From Roseovarius marisflavi (lineage in GTDB: Bacteria > Pseudomonadota > Alphaproteobacteria > Rhodobacterales > Rhodobacteraceae), in contig NZ_FRBN01000017.1 of NCBI RefSeq assembly GCF_900142625.1, positions 1 to 64,000 on the forward strand: DNA of 64,000 bases, written 5' to 3'. A model generated the notes under the pieces. It saw only the letters and a program-made list of their open reading frames with translations. It was not told the origin of the DNA and made no database searches. Positions 5,949 through 57,139 of this stretch are shown here, in pieces (within the stretch, counting starts at the first letter, position 1; the number at the start of each line of letters is the position of its first letter). The position numbers and the translations under genes were made by a program.

Positions 5949-7160
5949 ATGTTGTGGGAGACGGTCAAACTTGCGCTTCAGGCGATCCTGCGCAATGCGT
6001 TGCGGTCTTTTTTGACCGTGCTGGGGGTTGTGATCGGTGTGGCGGCGGTGATTGCGATGGTCACGGTGGGGCAGGGCTCGGCGCGGCAGGTGACTGCGGA
6101 TGTCGAAAAGCTGGGCAGTAACGTGCTGATGGTGATGCCGGGACAGGACGCCATGCAGGGCGGCCCGGGCAGTTCGGTGGCACCGCTGTTTTCACTGCGC
6201 GACAATGACCGGGTTCAGGATCAACTCAGCGTGGTGGACATTGCGGCACCGCTCAGCGCGACACGCGCGCGTGCGGTTTTTGGCAATGAAAATCACCGCA
6301 CCGATGTGACTGGCACCGATAATCGTTATTTTTCGGCGGCAGGATGGGAGGTTGAGCGCGGGCGCATATTTGAACCGTCAGAGCTTCAATCCGGCAAGCC
6401 GGTCTGCATTCTGGGTGAAACCGTGCGCAAAGAGCTTTTTGGCACGGCTGACCCGTTGGGTGAGACGATCCGGATCAAAACCCTGTCCTGCGAGGTGATC
6501 GGGCTTTTGCGTTCCAAGGGGGCGTCGACCTTTGGCAGCGACCAGGACGATTTCGTGATCATGCCGCTCAAGACCTATCAGCGCCGGGTGGCGGGAAATT
6601 CGGATGTGTCGTTCTTCTATGTGGCCGTACATGACGGTGTATCGACCGAGCGCGCCAAGCAGGAGATCGAGCGTCTGATGCGTGAAATCCGCCGCATTGG
6701 TCAGGGCGAAGAGGATGACTTCACCGTCATGGACATGAAACAGATCGCGACAATGCTGTCTGGCATCACCGATATCCTGACCGGGCTTTTGTCGGCGGTG
6801 GCGGCGGTCAGCCTGTTGGTGGGCGGCATCGGGATCATGAATATCATGCTGGTTTCGGTCACCGAGCGGACGCGCGAGATCGGCATCCGGCTTGCCGTGG
6901 GCGCGCAGGCCCATCAGGTGATGTCGCAGTTTCTGGTCGAGGCCATCGTGCTGTCGCTGATCGGCGGGCTGATCGGGATTGTGCTGGGGTTGATATTGGG
7001 CCTGGTGGGGGCCAATGCCCTGTCGGTGCCGTTCATGCCGGACCCGAAAATTGTCCTGCTGGCCTTTGGTTTTTCGGCGGCGGTTGGTGTGATCTTCGGG
7101 TATTTCCCGGCGCGCCGCGCCGCACGGTTGAACCCAATTGACGCCCTGCGCCATGAGTGA
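5949..7160 (+). CDS. ABC transporter permease, MacB type
   Basis: This is the membrane subunit of the three-gene exporter, 403 residues long. The N-terminal helix is near residues 20-43. It is followed by a large periplasmic MacB core domain with conserved stretches such as GRIFEPSE and GSDQDDFVIMPLKTYQRRV. Three C-terminal helices form the FtsX domain, including the motif GGIGIMNIMLVSVTERTREI. The ATG follows the upstream TGA by one base, so the operon is tightly packed. MacB systems act by mechanotransmission and extrude substrates from the periplasm; the substrate here is unknown. Confidence 0.92.
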   Translation: MLWETVKLALQAILRNALRSFLTVLGVVIGVAAVIAMVTVGQGSARQVTADVEKLGSNVLMVMPGQDAMQGGPGSSVAPLFSLRDNDRVQDQLSVVDIAAPLSATRARAVFGNENHRTDVTGTDNRYFSAAGWEVERGRIFEPSELQSGKPVCILGETVRKELFGTADPLGETIRIKTLSCEVIGLLRSKGASTFGSDQDDFVIMPLKTYQRRVAGNSDVSFFYVAVHDGVSTERAKQEIERLMREIRRIGQGEEDDFTVMDMKQIATMLSGITDILTGLLSAVAAVSLLVGGIGIMNIMLVSVTERTREIGIRLAVGAQAHQVMSQFLVEAIVLSLIGGLIGIVLGLILGLVGANALSVPFMPDPKIVLLAFGFSAAVGVIFGYFPARRAARLNPIDALRHE

Positions 7161-7221
7161 GGCGCAGCAATGGACCGCTTTCAGGACCGCGCAGATGCAG
7201 GGAAGACATTGGTCCCAGCCT

Positions 7222-7392
7222 TTAGCCCGGTCTTGAAATCATCATCCGTGAAAACGCTTCGTCGATCAGATTTCCGCTCTTTTCCTGTGAATTCTCCAGT
7301 GCCAACAGGTTGATCGGAACCCCGCTTGCCGCAGTGGGAGGCGCTGTCAGGATCAGCCCTCCGGGGCGCAGCTGCTTGTGGTAAACCCGCGC
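7222..7392 (-). pseudogene. Possible degraded coding fragment
   Basis: On the minus strand an open stretch encodes QLRPGGLILTAPPTAASGVP, then INLLALENSQEKSGNLIDEA, and ends at TAA 7222. It has protein-like composition, but no start codon precedes it: a TAA at 7393 closes the frame. The adjacent frame upstream also looks coding-like (GLGLLWPDKRGF). I do not recognise the family. It may be the broken 3' end of a lost gene. Confidence 0.25.
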
Positions 7393-7425
7393 TTATCGGG
7401 CCACAACAGACCAAGGCCCAAGCCA

Positions 7426-8042
7426 TTAAGCGCCGTTGTGGCGTTGGTTTTCAGGCATGAGCCTCGCGCTCGGGTTTCGCGGGGCGGTCGCGGGATCTCC
7501 GGATCTATCTAGGGGTGCATCTTCTGGCGTGGCGGGGGCCGGAGCGGGGTCAATCGGTCGCGGGACCTCAGGTGGGGCAGGCACCGGCTGCGGTTCAGTC
7601 GGCTGCGGCAATCCGGATTGCGGGCCTTCTGGCGGGTCACCAACGTAAAGCATCATGGCGTGCTGCAGACCCCGAAGTTTACGTTGAATTTCCCGCTCAT
7701 CCTCCGTCATGAAACCTTCCTCCTTCCCGAGTCCGGGATGGTATCGGAAGTCTCCCGCGAGTCCGTACATATCTACAGTCGTATAGTAGGTGCCGTCGCC
7801 CCGCGCATATGCGCAGCGGCCGGTCGCCGGATTTTGCGCCACGAGCGTACCCGCCGCCGCCGCGGCAAACGCCGCGACGAACCGCCAGTCGTCATCCGCG
7901 CTCAACGCATCCGCAGTGATCAAGCCAGCTGCCGCGCCGCCCGCGACGCCAACCACCGTGCGTGCTCCGGCGTCAGGTTTTTGCAACCGGCTATCACGAG
8001 GAAGCCAATAAGTGTGATCCCAATCAGGGGGGTGGGCCTCAT
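7426..8042 (-). pseudogene. Glycine-zipper lipoprotein gene broken by a -1 frameshift
   Basis: The reading frame starts at ATG 8042 with MRPTPLIGITLIGFLVIAGC, a lipoprotein signal with lipobox ending in Cys 20. At an A5 run just after that Cys codon (near 7977-7981) the frame is lost. The neighbouring frame continues with KPDAGARTVVGVAGGAAAGL, the Gly-rich segment of OsmB-like lipoproteins. It then runs to a Pro-rich tail of repeated PAPAP/PEDAP type and the stop at 7426. One missing A restores a protein of about 205 residues. The cause could be a real mutation, polymerase slippage or a sequencing error. A TTG start for the downstream part alone would lose the export signal. Confidence 0.6.
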
Positions 8043-8103
8043 TTCCCCTGGCTTTGGCTTTGCTTCAGGGATGAGCTGTACCGACCAATTGTTTTGCGGA
8101 GCC

Positions 8104-8523
8104 TCAGGGATGGTGACTCGCAGCTGCATGCAGAAGTTCGCCGGACAAGTCACGGCCGACCGCATGCGAGACGTCGCCAAGGCTAAGCATACCCACGAGC
8201 CTCTTTTTGTCGTCAATGACCGGAAGACAACGTATCTTCTTCTGATCCATCAGGTGAATGGCGTCCTCGACTGTCTCGTTTGTGTGACAGAAAATGATGC
8301 CTTTCGTCATGACCTCTTCGGCCGTGGTTTTCGCCGGAACACGGCCCTCGGCGACAACCCGCAGCGCGATATCCCGATCTGTGATCATTCCGATCAGCTT
8401 GTCGTTCTTGCCGACGGGAATGGCGCCGATATCGCTCTTCATCATGATCTTGGCGACCTCGCTGACAGGTATATCGGCGCTAGTCCAACCGGCCTGACGG
8501 TGCATTGCATCGTTGATCTTCAT
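8104..8523 (-). CDS. CBS-domain pair protein
   Basis: The 139-residue cytoplasmic protein consists of two CBS domains, which bind adenosyl ligands and act as energy or redox sensors. The first covers about residues 8-65 (DIPVSEVAKIMMKSDIGAIP, then GMITDRDIALRVV) and the second about residues 75-130 (VEDAIHLMDQKKIRCLPVID). I chose ATG 8523 because GGAGG lies 7 nt upstream. A longer frame reaches into the end of prs and lacks conserved content. A Crp/Fnr-type box and a -10-like element precede the gene. The DosR-controlled Hrp1 of mycobacteria is a stand-alone CBS pair of the same size. Confidence 0.88.
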   Translation of the reverse strand: MKINDAMHRQAGWTSADIPVSEVAKIMMKSDIGAIPVGKNDKLIGMITDRDIALRVVAEGRVPAKTTAEEVMTKGIIFCHTNETVEDAIHLMDQKKIRCLPVIDDKKRLVGMLSLGDVSHAVGRDLSGELLHAAASHHP

Positions 8524-8554
8524 CTCGTACCCTCCAGCTGAGTTTACTGATTTC

Positions 8555-8595
8555 AATATATCGGTACCGGGACCGGCGTTATTGACGACCGTCAA
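8555..8595 (-). promoter_or_regulatory. Crp/Fnr-type box and -10 for the CBS gene
   Basis: The perfect palindrome TTGAC-GACC-GTCAA lies at 8582-8595, overlapping the last codons of prs. A TATATT element reads leftward at 8560-8555, 31 bp from the box centre. The start codon is 65.5 bp from the box centre. This is the class II FNR geometry. Confidence 0.65.
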
Positions 8596-9584
8596 CCGGA
8601 AGCGTTTCGCGGTCTGATCGAGGCCGCTTGCGCCGACCATGTGTCATGCTCCTGCCGTATGGCATTTTCGATCATCGGGGCGCAGGAGATGCTCCGCAAC
8701 CTGTCGCCAAGCCGTCCGGCCCATGCGGGATCAGGGGCCGTGCTATCGGTGAGGGTGATCGTGTCGACCAGGGATGTTTGCGCGAATGCCGTCACTGCAT
8801 CATTGGTCAGCAATCCGTGCGCGACGATGGCGTGTACCTCTGCCGCGCCGTGCGCGCGTGCCGCTTCGGCGGCCCGCAGGGTCGTGCCTCCGCCACAGAT
8901 CATGTCATCGACGATATAAACAGCGCAGTCGTCAACCTCGCCCGCGAAATGTGTGCCGGAGACCACCCCGGCGCTCCGGCGCTTTTCCATGAACCCGAAC
9001 GGCACGTCCTTGTCGGTGGTTTCCTGCAAGGCCTCGCGAAGCAGTTGCGCGCGCTTCACGCCGCCGGGATCGGGCGAGACGATAGCGACCGGTCGGTCGG
9101 TCGAACGCCCTGCGATCTCTGCGGCGAAGAGGTGTTCGGTGGAAAGGTGCAGCGTCCGGCAGCGATATGCATTCTGGAAAGCCGCCGGGTTGTGGACTTC
9201 GAGGGTCATCACGGTATCGACACCCACTGCCTCAAACAATTGCGCGACATATCGCGTCGTCACCGGATCTTGCGTCTTTGTCAGCCGGTCCTTTCGGGAA
9301 TAGGCAAGGTAGGGGGCGATCGCCGTGACACGTGCTGCGCCGTGATCGCGGCACGCGGCCAGAAAAAACAACAGTCGCAGTAACTTGTCGTTGGCTGACG
9401 CAACGGGTTCTCCGTTCAGGGACTGCAGCACGTAAACATCCTGCCCGCCAACATCCGCAAGCGGACGCGCCTTGTGCTCGCCTCCTTCAAACTCGCGCTC
9501 CTCATGCAGTGCGAGATCAAACCCGCCAGCCTTGGCGACCTTGAGGCCGAGCGTCTTTGATCGGTCGAGTGCAAAAAACAACAT
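8592..9584 (-). CDS. prs: Ribose-phosphate pyrophosphokinase
   Basis: The enzyme makes phosphoribosyl pyrophosphate from ribose 5-phosphate and ATP. The 330-residue protein carries the flexible-loop region (AYSRKDRLTKTQDP), the metal-binding stretch EVHNPAAFQNAYRC, the PRPP-binding loop VDDMICGGGTTLRAA, and the conserved DPGGVKRAQLL. ATG 9584 lies 5 nt after GAGG. An extended frame upstream has no conserved residues. This divergent copy lies within a stress-gene cluster, so it is probably an accessory enzyme next to a housekeeping prs elsewhere. The neighbouring phosphoribosyltransferase could use its product. Confidence 0.9.
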   Translation of the reverse strand: MLFFALDRSKTLGLKVAKAGGFDLALHEEREFEGGEHKARPLADVGGQDVYVLQSLNGEPVASANDKLLRLLFFLAACRDHGAARVTAIAPYLAYSRKDRLTKTQDPVTTRYVAQLFEAVGVDTVMTLEVHNPAAFQNAYRCRTLHLSTEHLFAAEIAGRSTDRPVAIVSPDPGGVKRAQLLREALQETTDKDVPFGFMEKRRSAGVVSGTHFAGEVDDCAVYIVDDMICGGGTTLRAAEAARAHGAAEVHAIVAHGLLTNDAVTAFAQTSLVDTITLTDSTAPDPAWAGRLGDRLRSISCAPMIENAIRQEHDTWSAQAASIRPRNASG

Positions 9585-9590
9585 GACACC

Positions 9591-9632
9591 TCTATACCGC
9601 CTTTCGGCACAGGGCGAATTGACGGCGGTCAA
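9591..9632. promoter_or_regulatory. Divergent Crp/Fnr-type box between prs and the DUF2267 gene
   Basis: A perfect palindrome TTGAC-GGCG-GTCAA lies at 9619-9632. Leftward, TATAGA at 9596-9591 is exactly 32 bp from the box centre and would place the prs transcript start at or beside its ATG. Rightward, the DUF2267 start codon is 70.5 bp from the centre, with a weak AATGCT at the expected -10 position. One dimer could serve both genes. Confidence 0.65.
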
Positions 9633-9695
9633 TGCGCCGTTCCCACGCGCGTGCGAATGCTGAAACAATGGTGCCACCGCAGGAAAGGCCTTCAA

Positions 9696-10118
9696 ATGAC
9701 CATCAAGGAAATCCCGATCTTACATCATGCCCCCCAGGTATTCGCCGAGTGGCTCAACGAACTTTGCGACGACCTTGGTTGGCAGAAGCCGCAGGCGTAT
9801 GTGTTGCTATGTGAAACGCTCCACACGATCCGGGACTTCCTGACCGTCGATGAAGCTGCGGATCTCGGAGCGCAGCTCCCCGTGCTTGTCCGCGGTGTCT
9901 ATTACGATGGCTGGGACCCGTCAAAGACACCGGTCAAACCGCGCAACAAGGCGGATCTTTTGAAACGTGTCCAATCCCGGTTTCAGAGAACGCCGCTCGA
10001 AGATCCCGAACGCGCCGTCGGTGCCGTGTTCGACCTGCTTCGCCGCCATATCTCGTGGGGCGAGTTCCAGCAGGTGAAGCAGTCAATGCGGCGCCCGATT
10101 CAGGAGCTCTGGGATTAA
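9696..10118 (+). CDS. DUF2267 family protein
   Basis: The 140-residue protein matches the DUF2267 family: FAEWLNELCDDLGWQKPQAY, then LLCETLHTIRDFLTVDEAADLGAQLP and LVRGVYYDGWDPSKTP. It also has the helical C-terminal half with AVFDLLRRHISWGEFQQVKQ. DUF2267 proteins are small, soluble and helical; their biochemical role is not established. They often lie next to universal stress, CBS and phosphoribosyl genes. I chose ATG 9696 because AGGAAAGG lies just upstream and the family begins there. The next gene starts three bases after the stop, so the two are probably co-transcribed. Confidence 0.85.
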   Translation: MTIKEIPILHHAPQVFAEWLNELCDDLGWQKPQAYVLLCETLHTIRDFLTVDEAADLGAQLPVLVRGVYYDGWDPSKTPVKPRNKADLLKRVQSRFQRTPLEDPERAVGAVFDLLRRHISWGEFQQVKQSMRRPIQELWD

Positions 10119-10121
10119 TTC

Positions 10122-11183
10122 ATGCATATGTCATCAGCGAGAACCGAGCCGATAAAGGACGCATTGGCGTCCGGCGAGGGGTCGCTGGCAGAACTGCATG
10201 CCTTTTTGAGAAGCGGCGCGCCTTGGCCGGATGAGCCACCTCCGAAGTGCATCGAAACCCACGCCTCGCTGGTCTATCTCACAAGCGACAGGGCATGGAA
10301 ACTGAAGAAGCCGGTCCGCTTGATGCATGTCGATCAGGTGTCTTTCGAAGCGCGCGCGCGGCTTTGCCGGGAGGAGTTTCGGCTGAATCGCGCGCTTTCC
10401 GGCGGCGTCTATCGTAGTTTGACTCCACTTGTCCGGCGCGCCGACGGATCGCTGGCCCTTGGCGGCGTCGGGCGGGTTGTCGACTGGCTGATCGAATCCC
10501 TTCGGCTTCCGGAGCAAGAGATGCTTGATCGTCGCCTTGTCTGTGGCCCCGCACCCGAATGTACCGAGATCGAGGCGGTTTGCGATCTGCTCGTCGGGTT
10601 TTACCGGCGCCAACCGCAATTGCCTGACCCCGGTGCCGTCTTTTATCCTCGCCTGCTCCAAGACGTCGAGACTGCCGCGACACATTTGCGCGAAATGGCC
10701 TCTGCCACCGGTGTTCCCGCACCAGAGCAGACTGTCGACTTCGCGGTTGCTGCACTCAAGACATGCCGAGAAGAAATCGTCGAACGGGCGCGTCTGGGTC
10801 TTGTGGTCGAGGGGCATGGCGATTTGCGCTGCGAACATGTCTGCCTGACCAGGCCTCCCGTCGTCTTTGACCGCCTTGAGATTGATCACGGGATGCGTGT
10901 TCTTGATCCATTCTACGAAATCAACGCGCTCGGTCTCGAATGCGCCTTGCAGGGAGCCGGATGGATTCGCGCGGTGATGCTGGTGAAGATGTCTTACGCG
11001 ATTGCGCCGCCGTCTCTTGCTCTGCTTACCGCTTACGGTGGGGTTGCATTGCTGACGCGGGCGCGCTTGGCCGCAAACCATTTTCGCGACATCGAGGTCG
11101 CGACCCCGGCCAAGTGGCGCGCGAAAACGAAACAGAACGTCGCAGCGGCGGCGCAACTTTTTGCAAAAGCCGGCGAAATCTGA
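10122..11183 (+). CDS. APH-like phosphotransferase-fold protein (COG2187 type)
   Basis: The 353-residue protein resembles the N-terminal half of COG2187/COG0645 proteins. These have an aminoglycoside-phosphotransferase fold and are often fused to a P-loop kinase. Features include ETHASLVYLTSDRAWKLKKPVR (nucleotide-binding lobe with Lys), REEFRLNRALSGGVY, and the Brenner-type motif GHGDLRCEHVCL followed by DRLEIDHGMRVLDPFYEINA. The P-loop kinase half is absent, so this is the single-domain form. The substrate is unknown, and antibiotic resistance should not be assumed. Mycobacterial Rv2004c of the DosR regulon belongs to the same family. No clear ribosome site precedes the start, which fits coupling to DUF2267. 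Confidence 0.8.
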   Translation: MHMSSARTEPIKDALASGEGSLAELHAFLRSGAPWPDEPPPKCIETHASLVYLTSDRAWKLKKPVRLMHVDQVSFEARARLCREEFRLNRALSGGVYRSLTPLVRRADGSLALGGVGRVVDWLIESLRLPEQEMLDRRLVCGPAPECTEIEAVCDLLVGFYRRQPQLPDPGAVFYPRLLQDVETAATHLREMASATGVPAPEQTVDFAVAALKTCREEIVERARLGLVVEGHGDLRCEHVCLTRPPVVFDRLEIDHGMRVLDPFYEINALGLECALQGAGWIRAVMLVKMSYAIAPPSLALLTAYGGVALLTRARLAANHFRDIEVATPAKWRAKTKQNVAAAAQLFAKAGEI

Positions 11184-51993: not shown

Positions 51994-52204
51994 GGCTTTG
52001 TTCCTTCAATCGTTTTGGTTTTGTGGTGAATTCGAGGGTGCAACGTAAACCTGGCCGGGGCAGCTTTCAAGCGCCAAAATAGGCTGATCTGAGCCGATTG
52101 AAGGGTTATTCCCCCTTGTACCTTTCCTTTTTGCGCTCCATCTGAGAGCAAGAAGCGAAGGGGTGGCGTGATTTGCCGGACCCGCATGTATGAGGGAGTG
52201 GTTT

Positions 52205-53044
52205 ATGAAGAACCTACTATGGATTGTTTTGGCTGCCGTCGTTCTTGGCGGTGGCTATATGCTGTTTACCGGAAAATCGGTGACAGAGGTTGTCGATACG
52301 GTAAGCGAAACCGCAAAAGAGGTCGAGGCCCCGGAAGCGCTTGAAAATGCAAGCGAAGCCGTTGGCGAGGCCGCCGAGGCCGCCGCCGATACCGCGACCG
52401 AGGCCGCCGATGCGGTGGCTGATACCGCTGCCGAGGCCGTGGATGCCGCAACCGAGACGGCAACCGAAGCTGCCGATGCGGTTGCCGATACGGCGGCTGA
52501 AGCTGCTGATGCCGCGTCAGAGGCCGTCGATAGCGCCGTTGAGGCCGCAACCGGCGCCGCAGATAGCGCCGCCGACACGGCTGCCGAGGCTGTAGACGCT
52601 TCGGCCGATACGGCAAGCGAGGCGGCTGATGCCGCCGCGGAGACCGCGACCGAGGCGGCTGATACCGCCACAGAGGCTGCGTCTGATGCCGTTGACACCA
52701 CCACCGAGGCCGTGACCGACACCGCTCAGGATGGGGTTGACGCTGCGCAGGACGCCACCCAAGAGGCCGTCGAGGCCGCCACGGGTGAAAGCGCGGCTGA
52801 CGTTGCCGTAGAAACCGGCGATGCCGCGCAGGCCGCTGTCGAGGCCGCGACCGGCACAGCCGAAGCGCCCGAAGCCCTGACCATGGACGGTTTCAACATG
52901 GAAAGCGCCAAGAGCCTGATCGAAGGCACCGATCTTGGGGCCATGCAGAAGACCCTGCTGCTGCAAACGATCCAAAAGGCGCAGAACAATCCCGAGTTGC
53001 TGAAATCAGCGCTTGAGGCCGCCCGCAGCGCGCTTGGCTACTGA
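52205..53044 (+). CDS. Ala-rich 11-residue-repeat protein with membrane anchor
   Basis: The 279-residue protein begins with a membrane helix or signal anchor (MKNLLWIVLAAVVLGGGYML). A run of about 150 residues follows, built from degenerate 11-residue units, often paired as 22 (TATEAADAVAD and TAAEAVDAATE types). Only Ala, Asp, Glu, Thr, Val and Ser occur, which predicts long acidic amphipathic helices like those of apolipoproteins or LEA proteins. The last 55 residues form a different, more conserved-looking segment (MDGFNMESAKSLIEGTDLGA). ATG 52205 has GGGAG upstream. The function is unknown. Confidence 0.8.
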   Translation: MKNLLWIVLAAVVLGGGYMLFTGKSVTEVVDTVSETAKEVEAPEALENASEAVGEAAEAAADTATEAADAVADTAAEAVDAATETATEAADAVADTAAEAADAASEAVDSAVEAATGAADSAADTAAEAVDASADTASEAADAAAETATEAADTATEAASDAVDTTTEAVTDTAQDGVDAAQDATQEAVEAATGESAADVAVETGDAAQAAVEAATGTAEAPEALTMDGFNMESAKSLIEGTDLGAMQKTLLLQTIQKAQNNPELLKSALEAARSALGY

Positions 53045-53067: not shown

Positions 53068-53100
53068 CCCGCGCCGGTCCCCTCCGGCGCGGGTTTTTTT
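53068..53100 (+). terminator. Intrinsic terminator of the Ala-rich repeat gene
   Basis: A 10-bp perfect stem CCCGCGCCGG/CCGGCGCGGG with a 6-nt loop is followed by T7. It lies 24 bp after the stop and abuts the convergent tetR-type gene. Confidence 0.9.
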
Positions 53101-53671
53101 ATGTCTGGCGACAGGCTGCGGCCTCGATCAACAGCTCTGCGGCGGCTTTGGCGTCGAGCGCCGGGGTGGCATTGCCGAGCATCACAGAGGTCACGATCGC
53201 ACCCTCCTTGAGCAGCATCAGCTGGCGCGCAAGCGCCGCCGGGTCACGGGCCCCGGCCCGCACGGCGATCTCGTGCACATATTCAAGCAGCATACGCTTA
53301 TGGGTCGCCGCCTGAATGTGGATCGGATCCTCGGGGTCCTGAAATTCGGCCACCGCCTTGATGAACATGCAGCCCTTGAAACCGGGCGATGCGATCCATT
53401 CGTGGAGCACGTCAAAGGCCGCCAGAAGGCGCTCCTTCGGGGTGTCGGCAATCTCTTCCACGCGTCGGCAAAACCAGTTGCGAAACCGCTCGTCGCGCAG
53501 CCGGAGCACGGCAAGGATCATCTCTTCCTTGGTGCGGAAATGTTTGTACATCGAGGTTTTCGAGATGCCGGTTTCCGCGACAAGCTTGTCCATCCCGGTG
53601 GCGTGAAAGCCGTCGCGATAGAACACCTCAAGCGCGTTTCGCACCAGCTTGTCTCGTTTGTTGGGTCTCAT
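53099..53671 (-). CDS. TetR-family transcriptional regulator
   Basis: The 190-residue regulator has an N-terminal helix-turn-helix (FYRDGFHATGMDKLVAETGI, SKTSMYKHFRTKEEMILAVL) and a ligand-binding domain with a single central Cys in FKGCMFIKAVAEFQ. It is divergent from a three-gene enzyme unit and most likely represses it. A direct-repeat operator covers that promoter. Confidence 0.92.
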   Translation of the reverse strand: MRPNKRDKLVRNALEVFYRDGFHATGMDKLVAETGISKTSMYKHFRTKEEMILAVLRLRDERFRNWFCRRVEEIADTPKERLLAAFDVLHEWIASPGFKGCMFIKAVAEFQDPEDPIHIQAATHKRMLLEYVHEIAVRAGARDPAALARQLMLLKEGAIVTSVMLGNATPALDAKAAAELLIEAAACRQT

Positions 53672-53808
53672 ATTTTACCTTTGTATGTACTGAACTGTCC
53701 ACAATATAGGGTAGGGTAGGTGATTTCTCCAGATAAATAATTCCAAATAAAAGCAACGGTATAATTCGATTGTCGTTGGAATTCTGAGCGTTCAGTAGGA
53801 AAAAAGAT

Positions 53809-53863
53809 TTGACAAGGGTTACCGATCTGTACATTTAAGGTTAACAAAGTGTACCGATCAGTA
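53809..53863 (+). promoter_or_regulatory. Promoter and direct-repeat operator of the DUF1348 operon
   Basis: TTGACA (53809-53814) is a perfect -35. Two copies of TACCGATC[T/A]GTA lie at 53820-53831 and 53852-53863, 32 bp apart (three helical turns). The first falls in the spacer and the second downstream. Each copy is itself a partial palindrome (TAC...GTA). They are the likely binding sites of the divergent TetR protein. Confidence 0.65.
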
Positions 53864-53891
53864 ATCAATCCATGCCCCCAAGGAGCCAGAC

Positions 53892-54356
53892 ATGAGCCGC
53901 CCACCGCTTCCGCCCTTCACCGAAAGTACTGCCATCCAGAAAGTCCGCGCCGCCGAAGACGGCTGGAATGGCCAAAACCCCAAGGCCGTCGCCCAGGCCT
54001 ATACCGAGGATAGCCAGTGGCGGAACCGGGCCGAGTTTCTGACCGGTCACGCCGAAATCGAGGCCTTCCTCACCCGCAAATGGGCGCGCGAACAGGACTA
54101 TCGCCTGATCAAGGAGCTGTGGAGCTGGACGACAAACCGGATCGCCGTGCGCTTTGCCTATGAATGGCGCGATGCGGCGGGGCAGTGGTTTCGCTCCTAC
54201 GGCAACGAGAACTGGGAATTTGCCGAAGACGGCCGCATGCGCCGCCGGATTGCCAGCATCAACGACCTTGCGATCACCCCGCAAGAGCGCCTGTTTCACT
54301 GGCCACAGGGGCGCCGTCCCGATGATCACCCCGGCCTGAGCGACCTTGGCCTCTAA
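53892..54356 (+). CDS. DUF1348 (SnoaL-like) protein
   Basis: The 154-residue protein has the NTF2-like DUF1348 pattern: [60 protein letters not shown] and [20 protein letters not shown]. The family has a cone-shaped pocket for small molecules; catalysis is not established. It is the first gene of the TetR-controlled unit, with AAGGAG 7-8 nt before the start. Confidence 0.9.
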
Positions 54357-54376
54357 TCCCCAGAAAGGAGAGTGAC

Positions 54377-55006
54377 ATGCCCCGCGCCTTTGCCGAAATC
54401 GCCTTTACCCCCAACGTGCGCGCCGCGCAGGCGCGCCACGGGTCTGCGGCGGGTTATGAGAAATTCCTGTCGCCCGATGTGAGTGGCGGCGCGGCGCTTG
54501 GCCCCGACGAGGCCGCGTTCATCGAGGCCCGCGACGGGTTTTACCAAGCGAGCGTTTCCGAAACCGGCTGGCCCTATGTTCAGTTTCGCGGCGGCCCCAA
54601 GGGATTCTTGCGGGTGCTTGACGCGCGCACCATCGGGTACGCCGATTATCGCGGAAACCGCCAATATGTGAGCCTTGGCAATCTTGCGGGCGATAGCCGT
54701 ATCGCGTTGATCCTGATGGATTACCCCAACCGCAGACGGATCAAGATCTGGGGCAGGGCGCGGGTTGTCGAAGGCGAAGCCGCCGCCGAGATCCTTCCGG
54801 CCCTGCACGATCCCGATTATGTCGGGCGGCCCGAACGCGCGATCCTGATCACGGTCGAGGCGTTTGACTGGAACTGTCCCGCCCATATTCCGCAACGCCT
54901 CACCGAGGCCGAGCTTGAACCCTATCTCGCGCAACTGCGCGCGCAAATTTCCGACCTCACCACCGAGAATGCGCGGCTGAGCGATCTGCTTGGCACCGCG
55001 TCCTAA
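54377..55006 (+). CDS. Pyridoxamine 5'-phosphate oxidase-family flavoprotein
   Basis: The 209-residue protein has the split-barrel FMN fold: [40 protein letters not shown] and [20 protein letters not shown], then [20 protein letters not shown]. Such proteins bind FMN or F420 and reduce or oxidise small compounds. A coiled tail ends it. AAGGAG lies 7 nt before the ATG, and it is the second gene of the unit. Confidence 0.9.
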
Positions 55007-55032
55007 GCCCCAAACCCAAAGGAGCCAATCCC

Positions 55033-56001
55033 ATGATCCCCTCTTTCAAACACATGCTACACACCGGTGCGCTCGTCGTGTCGCTTGCCCTTGGCGCGAC
55101 CCTTCCCATGCAGGCGCAGGCGCTTGAACTCGCCTCGCCCGATCATGTGGCCTTTAAGACCGCCAGCATCGACGGCATCGAAATCGCCTATCGCGAGGCG
55201 GGCGATCCGTCGCATCCTACCGTTCTGCTGCTGCACGGGTTTCCGACCTCGTCGCATATGTTCCGCAACCTGATCCCTGAACTGGCGCAGGACTATCACG
55301 TGATTGCCCCCGATTATCCTGGCTTTGGTGCCTCTGCGATGCCGCCCGCCACGGAGTTCGAGTATTCCTTTGCCAATATCGCCGGGATGATGACCGCGCT
55401 TCTGGATCAAAAGGGCGTTGAGGGCTACGTGGCCTATGTGATGGATTACGGTGCGCCGGTCGGATACCGCATGTTCGCCGATGACCCAGAGCGCGTGGAC
55501 GGGTTCGTGATCCAGAACGGCAATGCCTATGCCGAGGGCCTGCGCGAGTTCTGGGACCCGATCAAGGCCTATTGGGCGGCGCCAACGACCGAGAACGGCG
55601 ATGCTCTGCGTGGCTTCTTTGAGCTTGAGGCGACCAAATGGCAGTTCACCGCAGGCGTTCAGAACCCCGAAGCCATCAGCCCCGATAACTATTGGACCGT
55701 GCAATACCTTCTGGATCGCCCCGGCAACCAGGAGGTGCAGCTTGAGCTGTTCCTGGATTACGGCACCAATGTCGGCGAATACCCGAAATGGCAGGCGCTG
55801 TTTCGCGAGCATCAGCCGCCGGCGCTGTTGATGTGGGGCAAGAACGACCCGATTTTCCCGGAAGAGGGCGCGCATCCCTATAAGGCCGACCTCAATGATC
55901 TTGAATTTCATATCCTCGACACCGGCCATTTCGCGCTTGAGGAATTTGGCCCCGAGATGGCGGTCGAGATGCTGGAGTTCCTTGATCGCGTTTACGAGTA
56001 G
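55033..56001 (+). CDS. Exported alpha/beta hydrolase, dehalogenase/epoxide-hydrolase type
   Basis: The 322-residue protein has a signal peptide (residues 1-30, ending MQAQA-LE). The oxyanion region is [20 protein letters not shown]. The nucleophile position is Asp in [13 protein letters not shown], not Ser, as in haloalkane dehalogenases and epoxide hydrolases. The acid is in [10 protein letters not shown] and the His in [10 protein letters not shown]. It is likely periplasmic. The third gene of the TetR-controlled unit, it ends at a hairpin shared with ada. Confidence 0.9.
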
Positions 56002-56021: not shown

Positions 56022-56060
56022 GGGCCGCGCCTTTGAACAGGGCGCGGCCCCTCTGCTTTT
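56022..56060 (+). terminator. Hairpin terminator between the hydrolase and ada genes
   Basis: A 10-bp perfect stem GGGCCGCGCC/GGCGCGGCCC with a 9-nt loop is followed by a pyrimidine tract ending TTTT. It lies between convergent genes. Confidence 0.7.
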
Positions 56061-56071
56061 GGGGCCGTCTG

Positions 56072-57139
56072 CTAGGGCCCTTGATCAAGGCCCCTGTATT
56101 GACGTTCAAGCTCCAAAAGCCGCTGCTTGCGCCAGAGCCCGCCGCCATAGCCGGTCAAAGACCCATCGGCCCCGATGACACGGTGGCAGGGAATGACAAG
56201 CGCCAGTTGGTTGGCGCCATTGGCGTGGGCCACGGCGCGGGTGGCCGAGGGGCGACCGATCTGTTGGGCAATCTGGGAATAGCTTTTGGTGACGCCGGGC
56301 GGAATGCGCTGAAGCTCGGCCCAGACCGCGCGGGCAAAGGGCGTGCCAGTCAGGGCCAGCGGCGCGGTAAAGGTGGCGGATTGACCGGCGAAGAACGCCT
56401 CAAGCTCGGCTCTGATCTGGTCGGTCGGGGCATGCGAGCCAAGGCCAAGCCGACCTTTTACCGCTTTTTCAAGGGTGGCGATCTCGGATTTGAGGGCCTT
56501 GCGGTCGATGAATTCCAAAAGGTGGAGATGCGTGGCACTGCTGATTGCGATCATGTCGCCAAGCGGGGTCTTGATCCAATCGGCCAGCAACACCCCGGTC
56601 GTGCTCAGGCTGCCGGGCGCGCGGCCAATGAGCCTTGCAAAGGCGGCGCGAAAGGCACTGGGCGAAGAGAACCCCGCATCAAGCTGGGCGTCGATAACCT
56701 TGCTGCCTTCGGTAAGCGCCTCGAACCCGTCGCGCAGACGCCGGTGGCGGGCCATGTCAAGGAAGGTCATACCGAACTGGCGCTTGAAACTGCGCCGAAC
56801 GGTCGAGAGATCAAACCCCATGGCCTCGATATCGGTCTCGCGCCAGCGGAATTCGGGGCGCTCTTCAAGGGCGTTCAGGAGGGTCGCGATAGCGGGATCA
56901 GCATTGGCCATGGGCGCCAGCGGATGACAGCGTTTGCAGGCCCTGAAACCCGCCTCAATACAGGCGCCGACCGAGGCGAAAAACCTGCAATTCTCGGGCC
57001 TGGGTTTGCGTGCAGGGCAGGTCAGGCGGCAAAAGATGCCGGTTGAGGTGACGCCAACATAGGCCTGCCCGTCAAAGCGGTCATCGCGCTCGATCAGCGC
57101 GCGGTAGAGGGTGTCATGATCTGGCAGGTCGAACAGCAT
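56072..57139 (-). CDS. ada: Ada-type DNA alkylation response regulator / O6-methylguanine methyltransferase
   Basis: The 355-residue protein has three parts. The first is a zinc Ada domain with four Cys (GIFCRLTCPARKPRPENC, then FRACKRCHP). The second is an AraC-type helix-turn-helix (LSTVRRSFKRQFGMTFLDMA, FSSPSAFRAAFARLIG). The third is a C-terminal methyltransferase with the acceptor in LVIPCHRVIGADG. It repairs alkylated DNA and turns on its own regulon after methylation. No alkB or aidB lies beside it. Confidence 0.94.
   Translation of the reverse strand: MLFDLPDHDTLYRALIERDDRFDGQAYVGVTSTGIFCRLTCPARKPRPENCRFFASVGACIEAGFRACKRCHPLAPMANADPAIATLLNALEERPEFRWRETDIEAMGFDLSTVRRSFKRQFGMTFLDMARHRRLRDGFEALTEGSKVIDAQLDAGFSSPSAFRAAFARLIGRAPGSLSTTGVLLADWIKTPLGDMIAISSATHLHLLEFIDRKALKSEIATLEKAVKGRLGLGSHAPTDQIRAELEAFFAGQSATFTAPLALTGTPFARAVWAELQRIPPGVTKSYSQIAQQIGRPSATRAVAHANGANQLALVIPCHRVIGADGSLTGYGGGLWRKQRLLELERQYRGLDQGP

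Follow-up and report, generated by a model that had tools for sequence, protein, structure and literature searches.

A TetR-type repressor and its probable operators at an exported-hydrolase operon of Roseovarius marisflavi that may serve inducible detoxification

The window analysed here is a 64,000-nucleotide stretch at the start of contig 51 (NZ_FRBN01000017.1) of the 4.08 Mb genome of Roseovarius marisflavi. It carries an operon of three genes, encoding a DUF1348 protein, a PPOX-type putative flavoprotein and a predicted exported alpha/beta hydrolase, next to a divergent tetR gene (Table 1). We propose that this is probably a TetR-repressed, inducible operon for detoxification of an electrophile or oxidant. 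A sequence-only reading of the same DNA had named the divergent tetR, the TTGACA hexamer, two repeats and the three enzyme genes, and all of these elements are present. Its interpretation as a small pathway against an electrophilic compound attacked outside the inner membrane is right in outline and too narrow. Regulated detoxification operons such as Cif/CifR, nemRA and MhqR are known; the present gene combination is a variant, of which larger and smaller versions recur in relatives, some on plasmids.

TetR control of the operon is well supported by the comparison of sequences. The two repeats are very probably operators of the divergent TetR. They were abandoned as plain direct repeats, each being itself a near-palindrome of the form TACNGATCNGTA. 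This had been overlooked, as had a third, weaker site beside the tetR start. The three sites are called O1, O2 and O3 in order from tetR. The nearest relative found, Roseovarius gaetbuli, keeps both repeats, with 92-97% identity over the four proteins. For a broader view, the window and 29 relatives with a TetR identity above 50% were compared. In these 30 loci a looser core of the motif fills O1 in 23 (counted as a site at most 40 bp from the tetR start), O2 in 28 and O3 in 29. The distances from the tetR start are about 17, 148 and 180 in most loci, with L002 shifted, and O2 and O3 mostly lie 29-34 bp apart. This spacing is nearly fixed though the next gene differs, being DUF1348, PPOX, the hydrolase or an isochorismatase-like gene (L005, L016, L026, L058).

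The operator sites follow the repressor gene across genomes. The pattern WACNGATCNGTW, scanned over 220 bases counted from the tetR start, gave 54 matches in 28 of the 30 TetR loci, against none for the reversed control and a mean of 0.022 for shuffled sequence; when near-copies are removed, 23 of the remaining 25 loci hold 43 sites. The exact pair TACCGATCNGTA-N12..28-TACNGATCNGTA occurs once in the host genome and at six distinct places in six of 295 family genomes (seven matches, one place being read on both strands; no match for the reversed pattern), and all six places lie beside a homologous tetR. Among hydrolase loci that lack a related TetR, one of 49 has an operator site upstream of the operon (L012); L023 and L078, which have no upstream DNA, are left out of this count. 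Over the whole length of all 51 such loci (417 kb) the motif appears in three, L007, L012 and L056. The earlier assignment of the operon to TetR control thus holds at the level of sequence. A position weight matrix alone is not independent, because it was built from exact sites of the same loci; the pair and WACNGATCNGTW scans used fixed patterns with controls. With at most one mismatch, TACYGATCRGTA has seven forward matches in the host genome and eight for the reversed pattern. Because the reversed pattern matches equally often, the other one-mismatch sites were dismissed as chance; a match in L082 falls within a 605-amino-acid (aa) open frame.

In the proposed mechanism, a TetR dimer would bind the three pseudo-palindromic operators and shut both promoters, with O1 at the tetR promoter, O2 between the -35 and -10 elements of the operon and O3 about three helical turns downstream. 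Promoter-like hexamers at 53701-53672 (-) span O1, and the region holds three promoter-like matches where 1.0 is expected. The consensus promoter scan of this region did not list the TTGACA promoter, whose -10 element is weak and was not identified. The TetR-family protein TTHB023 of Thermus binds, at about 2 nM, a palindrome whose core is ACCGATCGGT (PMC7022988), an analogy which shows that such a core can serve as a TetR site and says nothing on binding by the TetR of the window. In the open-licence literature, the exact operator 12-mers appear in apparently unrelated work only.

Table 1. Features of the tetR-operon region in the window
Feature	Position	Strand	Description
TetR/AcrR-type repressor gene	53099..53671	-	190 aa; TetR_N and TetR_C_13 over Pfam cut-off
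Operator O1 (putative, degenerate)	53688..53699	.	TACTGAACTGTC; 17 bp from tetR start, over predicted tetR promoter
TTGACA, probable -35 of operon	53809..53814	+	TTGAC just 5' of or overlapping O2 in 22/30 loci
Operator O2 (putative)	53820..53831	.	TACCGATCTGTA; presumed -35/-10 spacer; 28/30 loci
Operator O3 (putative)	53852..53863	.	TACCGATCAGTA; 32 bp after O2; 29/30 loci
DUF1348 (NTF2/SnoaL-like) gene	53892..54356	+	154 aa; PF07080 E 2.2e-64, plus SnoaL_2
PPOX-type (PNPOx_N) putative flavoprotein gene	54377..55006	+	209 aa; PF01243 E 1.9e-10
Exported (predicted) alpha/beta hydrolase gene	55033..56001	+	322 aa; PF00561 (Abhydrolase_1) over cut-off
Possible intrinsic terminator at operon end	56022..56050	+	12-pair stem, then T-rich tail

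Operator-like motifs also occur at DUF1348 genes with more distant regulators. DUF1348 is present in 46 of 200 phylum genomes, and 30 loci were examined. By eye, a near-palindrome of operator type lies just upstream of DUF1348 in nine of them (L095, L101, L106, L107, L111, L112, L114, L115 and L120), four being exact; all nine belong to other families of the same class. Except for L095, these loci carry palindromes TGTACCGATCGGTACA before DUF1348, some directly after TTGACT. A TetR match within 3.4 kb (24-39% identity, partial) accompanies seven of the nine. This distribution suggests that DUF1348 is an old target of TetR control. It also cautions against taking the motif as private to the TetR of the window.

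The repressor itself offers a candidate sensor residue. Its TetR_N helix-turn-helix scores 50.2 bits with PF00440 (cut-off 24). Cys101, part of a GCxxxKxxxE motif, is invariant in all 31 aligned sequences, our own included; a wider count of 38 out of 38 includes near-duplicate loci and the doubtful row L066, and the 31-row alignment is quoted instead. Cys101 aligns with Cys106 of NemR from Escherichia coli, and Lys105 and Glu109 of the motif are common to both proteins. The structure model of the repressor has a predicted local distance difference test (pLDDT) score of 95.1, and Foldseek returns NemR (4yze) at rank 6 with E 1.3e-7, behind structures without described function. In the NemR-nemA-gloA system, a TetR with the aligned cysteine controls electrophile detoxification enzymes. 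It differs in its target genes and in Lys175, which is not conserved here, and the two repressors share 20% identity. NemR Cys106 responds to reactive chlorine (PMC7464077, PMC8748444), and a Lys-to-Ala biosensor variant of NemR still responds (PMC8748444). In our model, the repressor would be released by a reactive compound that is probably electrophilic or oxidising (a quinone, an epoxide or a chlorine-derived species, for instance), possibly through modification of Cys101 as at the aligned NemR residue.

A special case of this model would be a defence against reactive-chlorine-type oxidants, in which a NemR/RcrR-like thiol-switch repressor controls enzymes that repair or remove chlorinated or oxidised products. 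The alignment of Cys101 with the chlorine-responsive cysteine of NemR is consistent with it, and so are the CMD and exported YHS proteins of the larger cluster described below and a DUF417 gene near a distant hydrolase homologue, DUF417 being the family of RcrB (PMC9600549). However, the DUF417 neighbour is annotated in one of 13 plasmid regions, the lysine partner of the NemR cysteine is missing, and the window operon contains no chlorine-specific enzyme. We consider this special case improbable. The main text of PMC7950407, on Pseudomonas aeruginosa and hypochlorous acid, does not mention SnoaL, hydrolase or isochorismatase.

The hydrolase has the architecture expected for attack by an aspartate. 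D138 at the nucleophile elbow, D272 and H299 are the catalytic candidates. D138, Y139, D272 and the HGFP stretch 68-71 are invariant in 55 aligned sequences, and H299 is nearly so. The structure model reaches a pLDDT of 90.8, with residues 1-27 below 50. Among the matches listed, the top overall folds are haloalkane dehalogenases (Z 30.7-32.9 over about 270 residues, 20-23% identity). Foldseek also returns the Cif-like Cfl2 at rank 4, fluoroacetate dehalogenases and the epoxide hydrolase CorEH; by sequence, the best solved match is partial (E 3.5e-22). The Asp nucleophile assigned in the sequence-only reading is therefore confirmed by invariance, by alignment with the dehalogenase Asp and by the fold matches. 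Of the two enzyme groups that it named for this nucleophile, the haloalkane dehalogenases are disfavoured. The dehalogenases DhaA, DbjA and DhmeA share the Asp nucleophile and the HGxPTSS loop with the window hydrolase, but F70 and Y139, both invariant in the 55 sequences, occupy the places of their halide-site Asn and Trp (Asn41 and Trp107 in DhaA). As this pair is missing, an identity as haloalkane dehalogenase was rejected, despite nucleophile and fold. In contrast, H68-G69-F70-P71 conforms to the HGXP motif with aromatic X described for epoxide hydrolases (PMC8244358). Y180, Y243 and Y250 are likewise invariant and are candidates for the Tyr-Tyr or His-Tyr ring-opening pair of the cap. The enzyme may act on epoxides or esters.

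The window hydrolase further differs from the haloalkane dehalogenases in having a predicted export signal. This signal, also noted from the sequence before, is conserved. By a simple hydropathy rule, used in place of a dedicated signal predictor, a hydrophobic N-terminus is kept in 68 of 78 hydrolase loci (two of the 80, L068 and L071, were not judged). The hydrolase is thus probably sent outside the inner membrane, where it would open or hydrolyse the compound or its product in the periplasm. The DUF1348 and PPOX proteins carry no export signals, and we suppose that they would act on what gets into the cell. For DUF1348 there is a solved homologue (2imj, E 2.8e-73); a sequence search found no solved relative of the PPOX protein, and NCBIfam gave no family above cut-off for any of the four products. 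Also in the DUF1348 family is 71cR of Cercospora, whose expression made Neurospora more resistant to the photosensitiser cercosporin, while its knock-out in Cercospora left resistance the same as in wild type (PMC4608573). In the open-licence literature DUF1348 appears only in work on Cercospora, and COG3558 gave no match.

The PPOX gene and the hydrolase gene form the core of the operon, and DUF1348 is optional. We compared 80 hydrolase loci, divided into a close group of 57 and a distant group of 23. Within 3 kb of the hydrolase, the close loci contain PPOX in 50, TetR in 27 and DUF1348 in 25, with all three in 19, and the distant loci contain PPOX in 6, DUF1348 in 5 and TetR in 2, with all three in one. 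Within the family, the hydrolase was found in 22 of 290 genomes at 24 places (own included; E up to 1e-60), of which 20 were fetched (not G203, G061:C65 and G039). Where the hydrolase identity is at least 66% (15 places, again with our own), PPOX lies upstream in all 15, TetR is present in 11, LysR in 3 and DUF1348 in 8. Of six more distant places, three have PPOX nearby (L138-L140) and three do not (L141-L143). In a tree of 55 hydrolases, 30 of them with a regulator label (L063, which has a 42% TetR and a LysR, was labelled LysR), the TetR label needs five changes, at least three of which are forced by well-supported branches. We conclude that regulators were exchanged more than once. In L018 (3432-3932), a 166-aa membrane-like protein that matches nothing in Pfam lies between PPOX and hydrolase, and a homologue with 50% identity sits 3' of the hydrolase in L126.

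Variable gene content of this kind, with the full trio of partners in a third of close loci (19/57) and in 1/23 distant ones, is what would be expected if the neighbourhood were incidental, with the TetR regulating itself alone beside genes of unrelated purpose. Against this stand the pairing of PPOX and hydrolase in most close loci and in all 15 family places with at least 66% identity, the position of O2 and O3 at the operon promoter with conserved spacing, and a fusion of an isochorismatase-like part to the hydrolase in L061. We consider an incidental neighbourhood very improbable. The co-occurrence that the sequence-only reading proposed to check is found for the PPOX-hydrolase pair and is much rarer for the trio. 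Its view that these enzymes make up a closed pathway is not upheld: DUF1348 is optional, LysR swaps for TetR in some lineages, and the operon sometimes lies within a larger cluster. Homologous hydrolases under unrelated regulation were among the findings that this reading had named as its own refutation, and they are in part what is seen.

This larger cluster is seen in the host genome as two separate blocks. PPOX relatives (E up to 1e-8) and DUF1348 genes each occur twice in this genome, once as the pair of the window and once as a pair on contig 80. On that contig, a second block (L122, 1615-7189) runs in one direction and contains DUF1348, PPOX, an AraC-type regulator, an isochorismatase-like protein, a YHS protein and an azoreductase-like protein with CMD. 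The azoreductase-like part is a Flavodoxin_2 protein in one open frame with the CMD domain (436 aa read). Read by eye, the isochorismatase-like protein has a twin-arginine-like leader and the YHS protein a leader. The flanks of L122, also named by eye, hold a transposase-like open reading frame (76-648) and TRAP-transporter-like frames (7086-10241). In L155-L157 the two blocks are continuous, with TetR, PPOX (not detected in L157), hydrolase, PhzF, AraC, DUF1348, isochorismatase-like, YHS and CMD, and in L158 a LysR version of the hydrolase operon stands beside such a block. These four genomes were selected because they hold the hydrolase. Eight isochorismatase regions chosen regardless of the hydrolase (L148-L154, L160) contain DUF1348 in five and PPOX in three. 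In L151 and L153, TetR genes 45-49% identical to that of the window lie divergent to DUF1348-led second blocks without hydrolase; no exact operator was found beside DUF1348 in these two loci.

The joined order is also present on the Phaeobacter inhibens plasmid pP30_b, typed as conjugative. Its annotation lists TetR, PPOX family, alpha/beta hydrolase, PhzF, AraC, NTF2 family, cysteine hydrolase, YHS (seleno)protein and CMD. The '(seleno)protein' family annotation of the YHS gene (L162:10943-11452) suggests a redox role. In all, 13 regions were read from 236 plasmid records. A hydrolase homologue on one Rhizobium plasmid has quinol monooxygenase and DJ-1/PfpI neighbours. Other regions show TetR and PPOX in a planctomycete; TetR, NTF2 and RidA; CMD, two AraC and DUF417; or NTF2, DoxX and pirin, and some have no telling neighbour. 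No description of the cluster turned up in searches of open-licence literature, the only literature searched.

The operon may belong to a modular stress cluster as one of its blocks, the related second block lying on another contig. On a tentative reading, which we hold possible and rate below the detoxification role as such, the window operon would be half of a modular, partly plasmid-borne defence cluster that works in two compartments and intercepts a reactive compound in the periplasm. Inside the cell it would comprise the TetR and AraC (or LysR) regulators, the PPOX flavoprotein and DUF1348, and outside the inner membrane the exported hydrolase, the exported isochorismatase-like hydrolase and the exported YHS protein. 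A stepwise action of the two exported hydrolases is suggested by L061 (3284-4933), a metagenome-derived contig in which an exported isochorismatase-like domain and the hydrolase form a single 549-aa frame. The two blocks would act jointly.

The main alternative is a catabolic use of the gene set. Here a specific compound, natural or man-made (an aromatic ester, a lactone or an amide, for example), would be degraded as food and sensed non-covalently by the TetR. In line with this, the larger cluster encodes PhzF, CMD and isochorismatase-type proteins, other lineages use LysR or AraC regulators, and the spread is patchy (22/290 family genomes, and plasmids too). However, the annotation of the Phaeobacter cluster shows no transporter, CoA ligase or ring dioxygenase from TetR to CMD (elsewhere a fixed panel only was applied), and the AhpD-like CMD, DJ-1 and quinol monooxygenase neighbours resemble stress genes. 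We regard a catabolic operon as unlikely, though less so than a defence specific to reactive chlorine.

Several observations weigh against inducible detoxification under a cysteine-sensing TetR. Two operators come without a detected TetR, in L012 and in L127, where a site precedes DUF1348 and TetR was not found within 18.9 kb, and similar motifs also adjoin other TetRs. The position of NemR Lys175, the sulfenamide partner, is Val in the TetR of the window. SCO4454 also carries the Cys101 motif, so that the cysteine may play a structural role across a broad subgroup of TetRs and is not specific to NemR-like sensors. No PPOX gene lies within 3 kb in 7 of the 57 close and 17 of the 23 distant loci, and LysR stands in for TetR in some lineages. 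The hydrolase is absent from all eight isochorismatase regions chosen regardless of it, and the clue that points most to quinones, the azoreductase-like gene, occurs in just two of 15 isochorismatase-type regions (L122, L149). Catabolic pathways, too, can contain PhzF, CMD and isochorismatase-like proteins.

Inducible detoxification is nevertheless the likeliest purpose by gene context, and it is the general part of the sequence-only interpretation that stands. We prefer it because of the MhqR/QsrR regulons, the cercosporin resistance conferred by a DUF1348 protein and Cif/CifR taken together. In Cif/CifR of Pseudomonas aeruginosa, an operon with an exported Asp-nucleophile hydrolase is controlled by a divergent TetR, which epoxides release (PMC8244358). 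According to a title in the reference list of that paper, CifR has two binding sites. The cif operon, as described there, holds morB and a major facilitator superfamily (MFS) transporter gene instead of PPOX and DUF1348; the sequence of Cif was not compared. In the MhqR/YodB/QsrR systems of Bacillus and Staphylococcus, the alpha/beta hydrolase MhqD and azoreductases are placed under quinone-responsive repressors (PMC6798810). Unlike here, these regulators are of the MarR type and ring-cleavage dioxygenases are present, of which none was found in the window operon.

The operon is flanked by genes of other kinds. Directly 3' of it, a convergent Ada-type gene (window 56072-57139, minus strand) encodes Ada_Zn_binding, HTH_18 and a methyltransferase domain and is an alkylation-damage responder. 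At 52190-53044 on the plus strand lies a gene for a protein of 284 aa, which is hydrophobic at its start, contains long degenerate Ala/Glu/Asp-rich repeats and matches nothing in Pfam or NCBIfam. The possible terminator of Table 1 is to be read with the count of terminator-like matches in mind, two seen against 3.0 +/- 1.5 expected by chance.

Our analysis yields a testable pair of regulator and operator, and it places DUF1348 and a clade of exported hydrolases in a genomic context. Once the inducer is identified, several families that are so far uncharacterised would become open to functional study. Should it prove to be a quinone, an epoxide or a chlorine-derived species, the operon would give marine bacteria a periplasmic defence against that compound, located in at least one case on a plasmid typed as conjugative.

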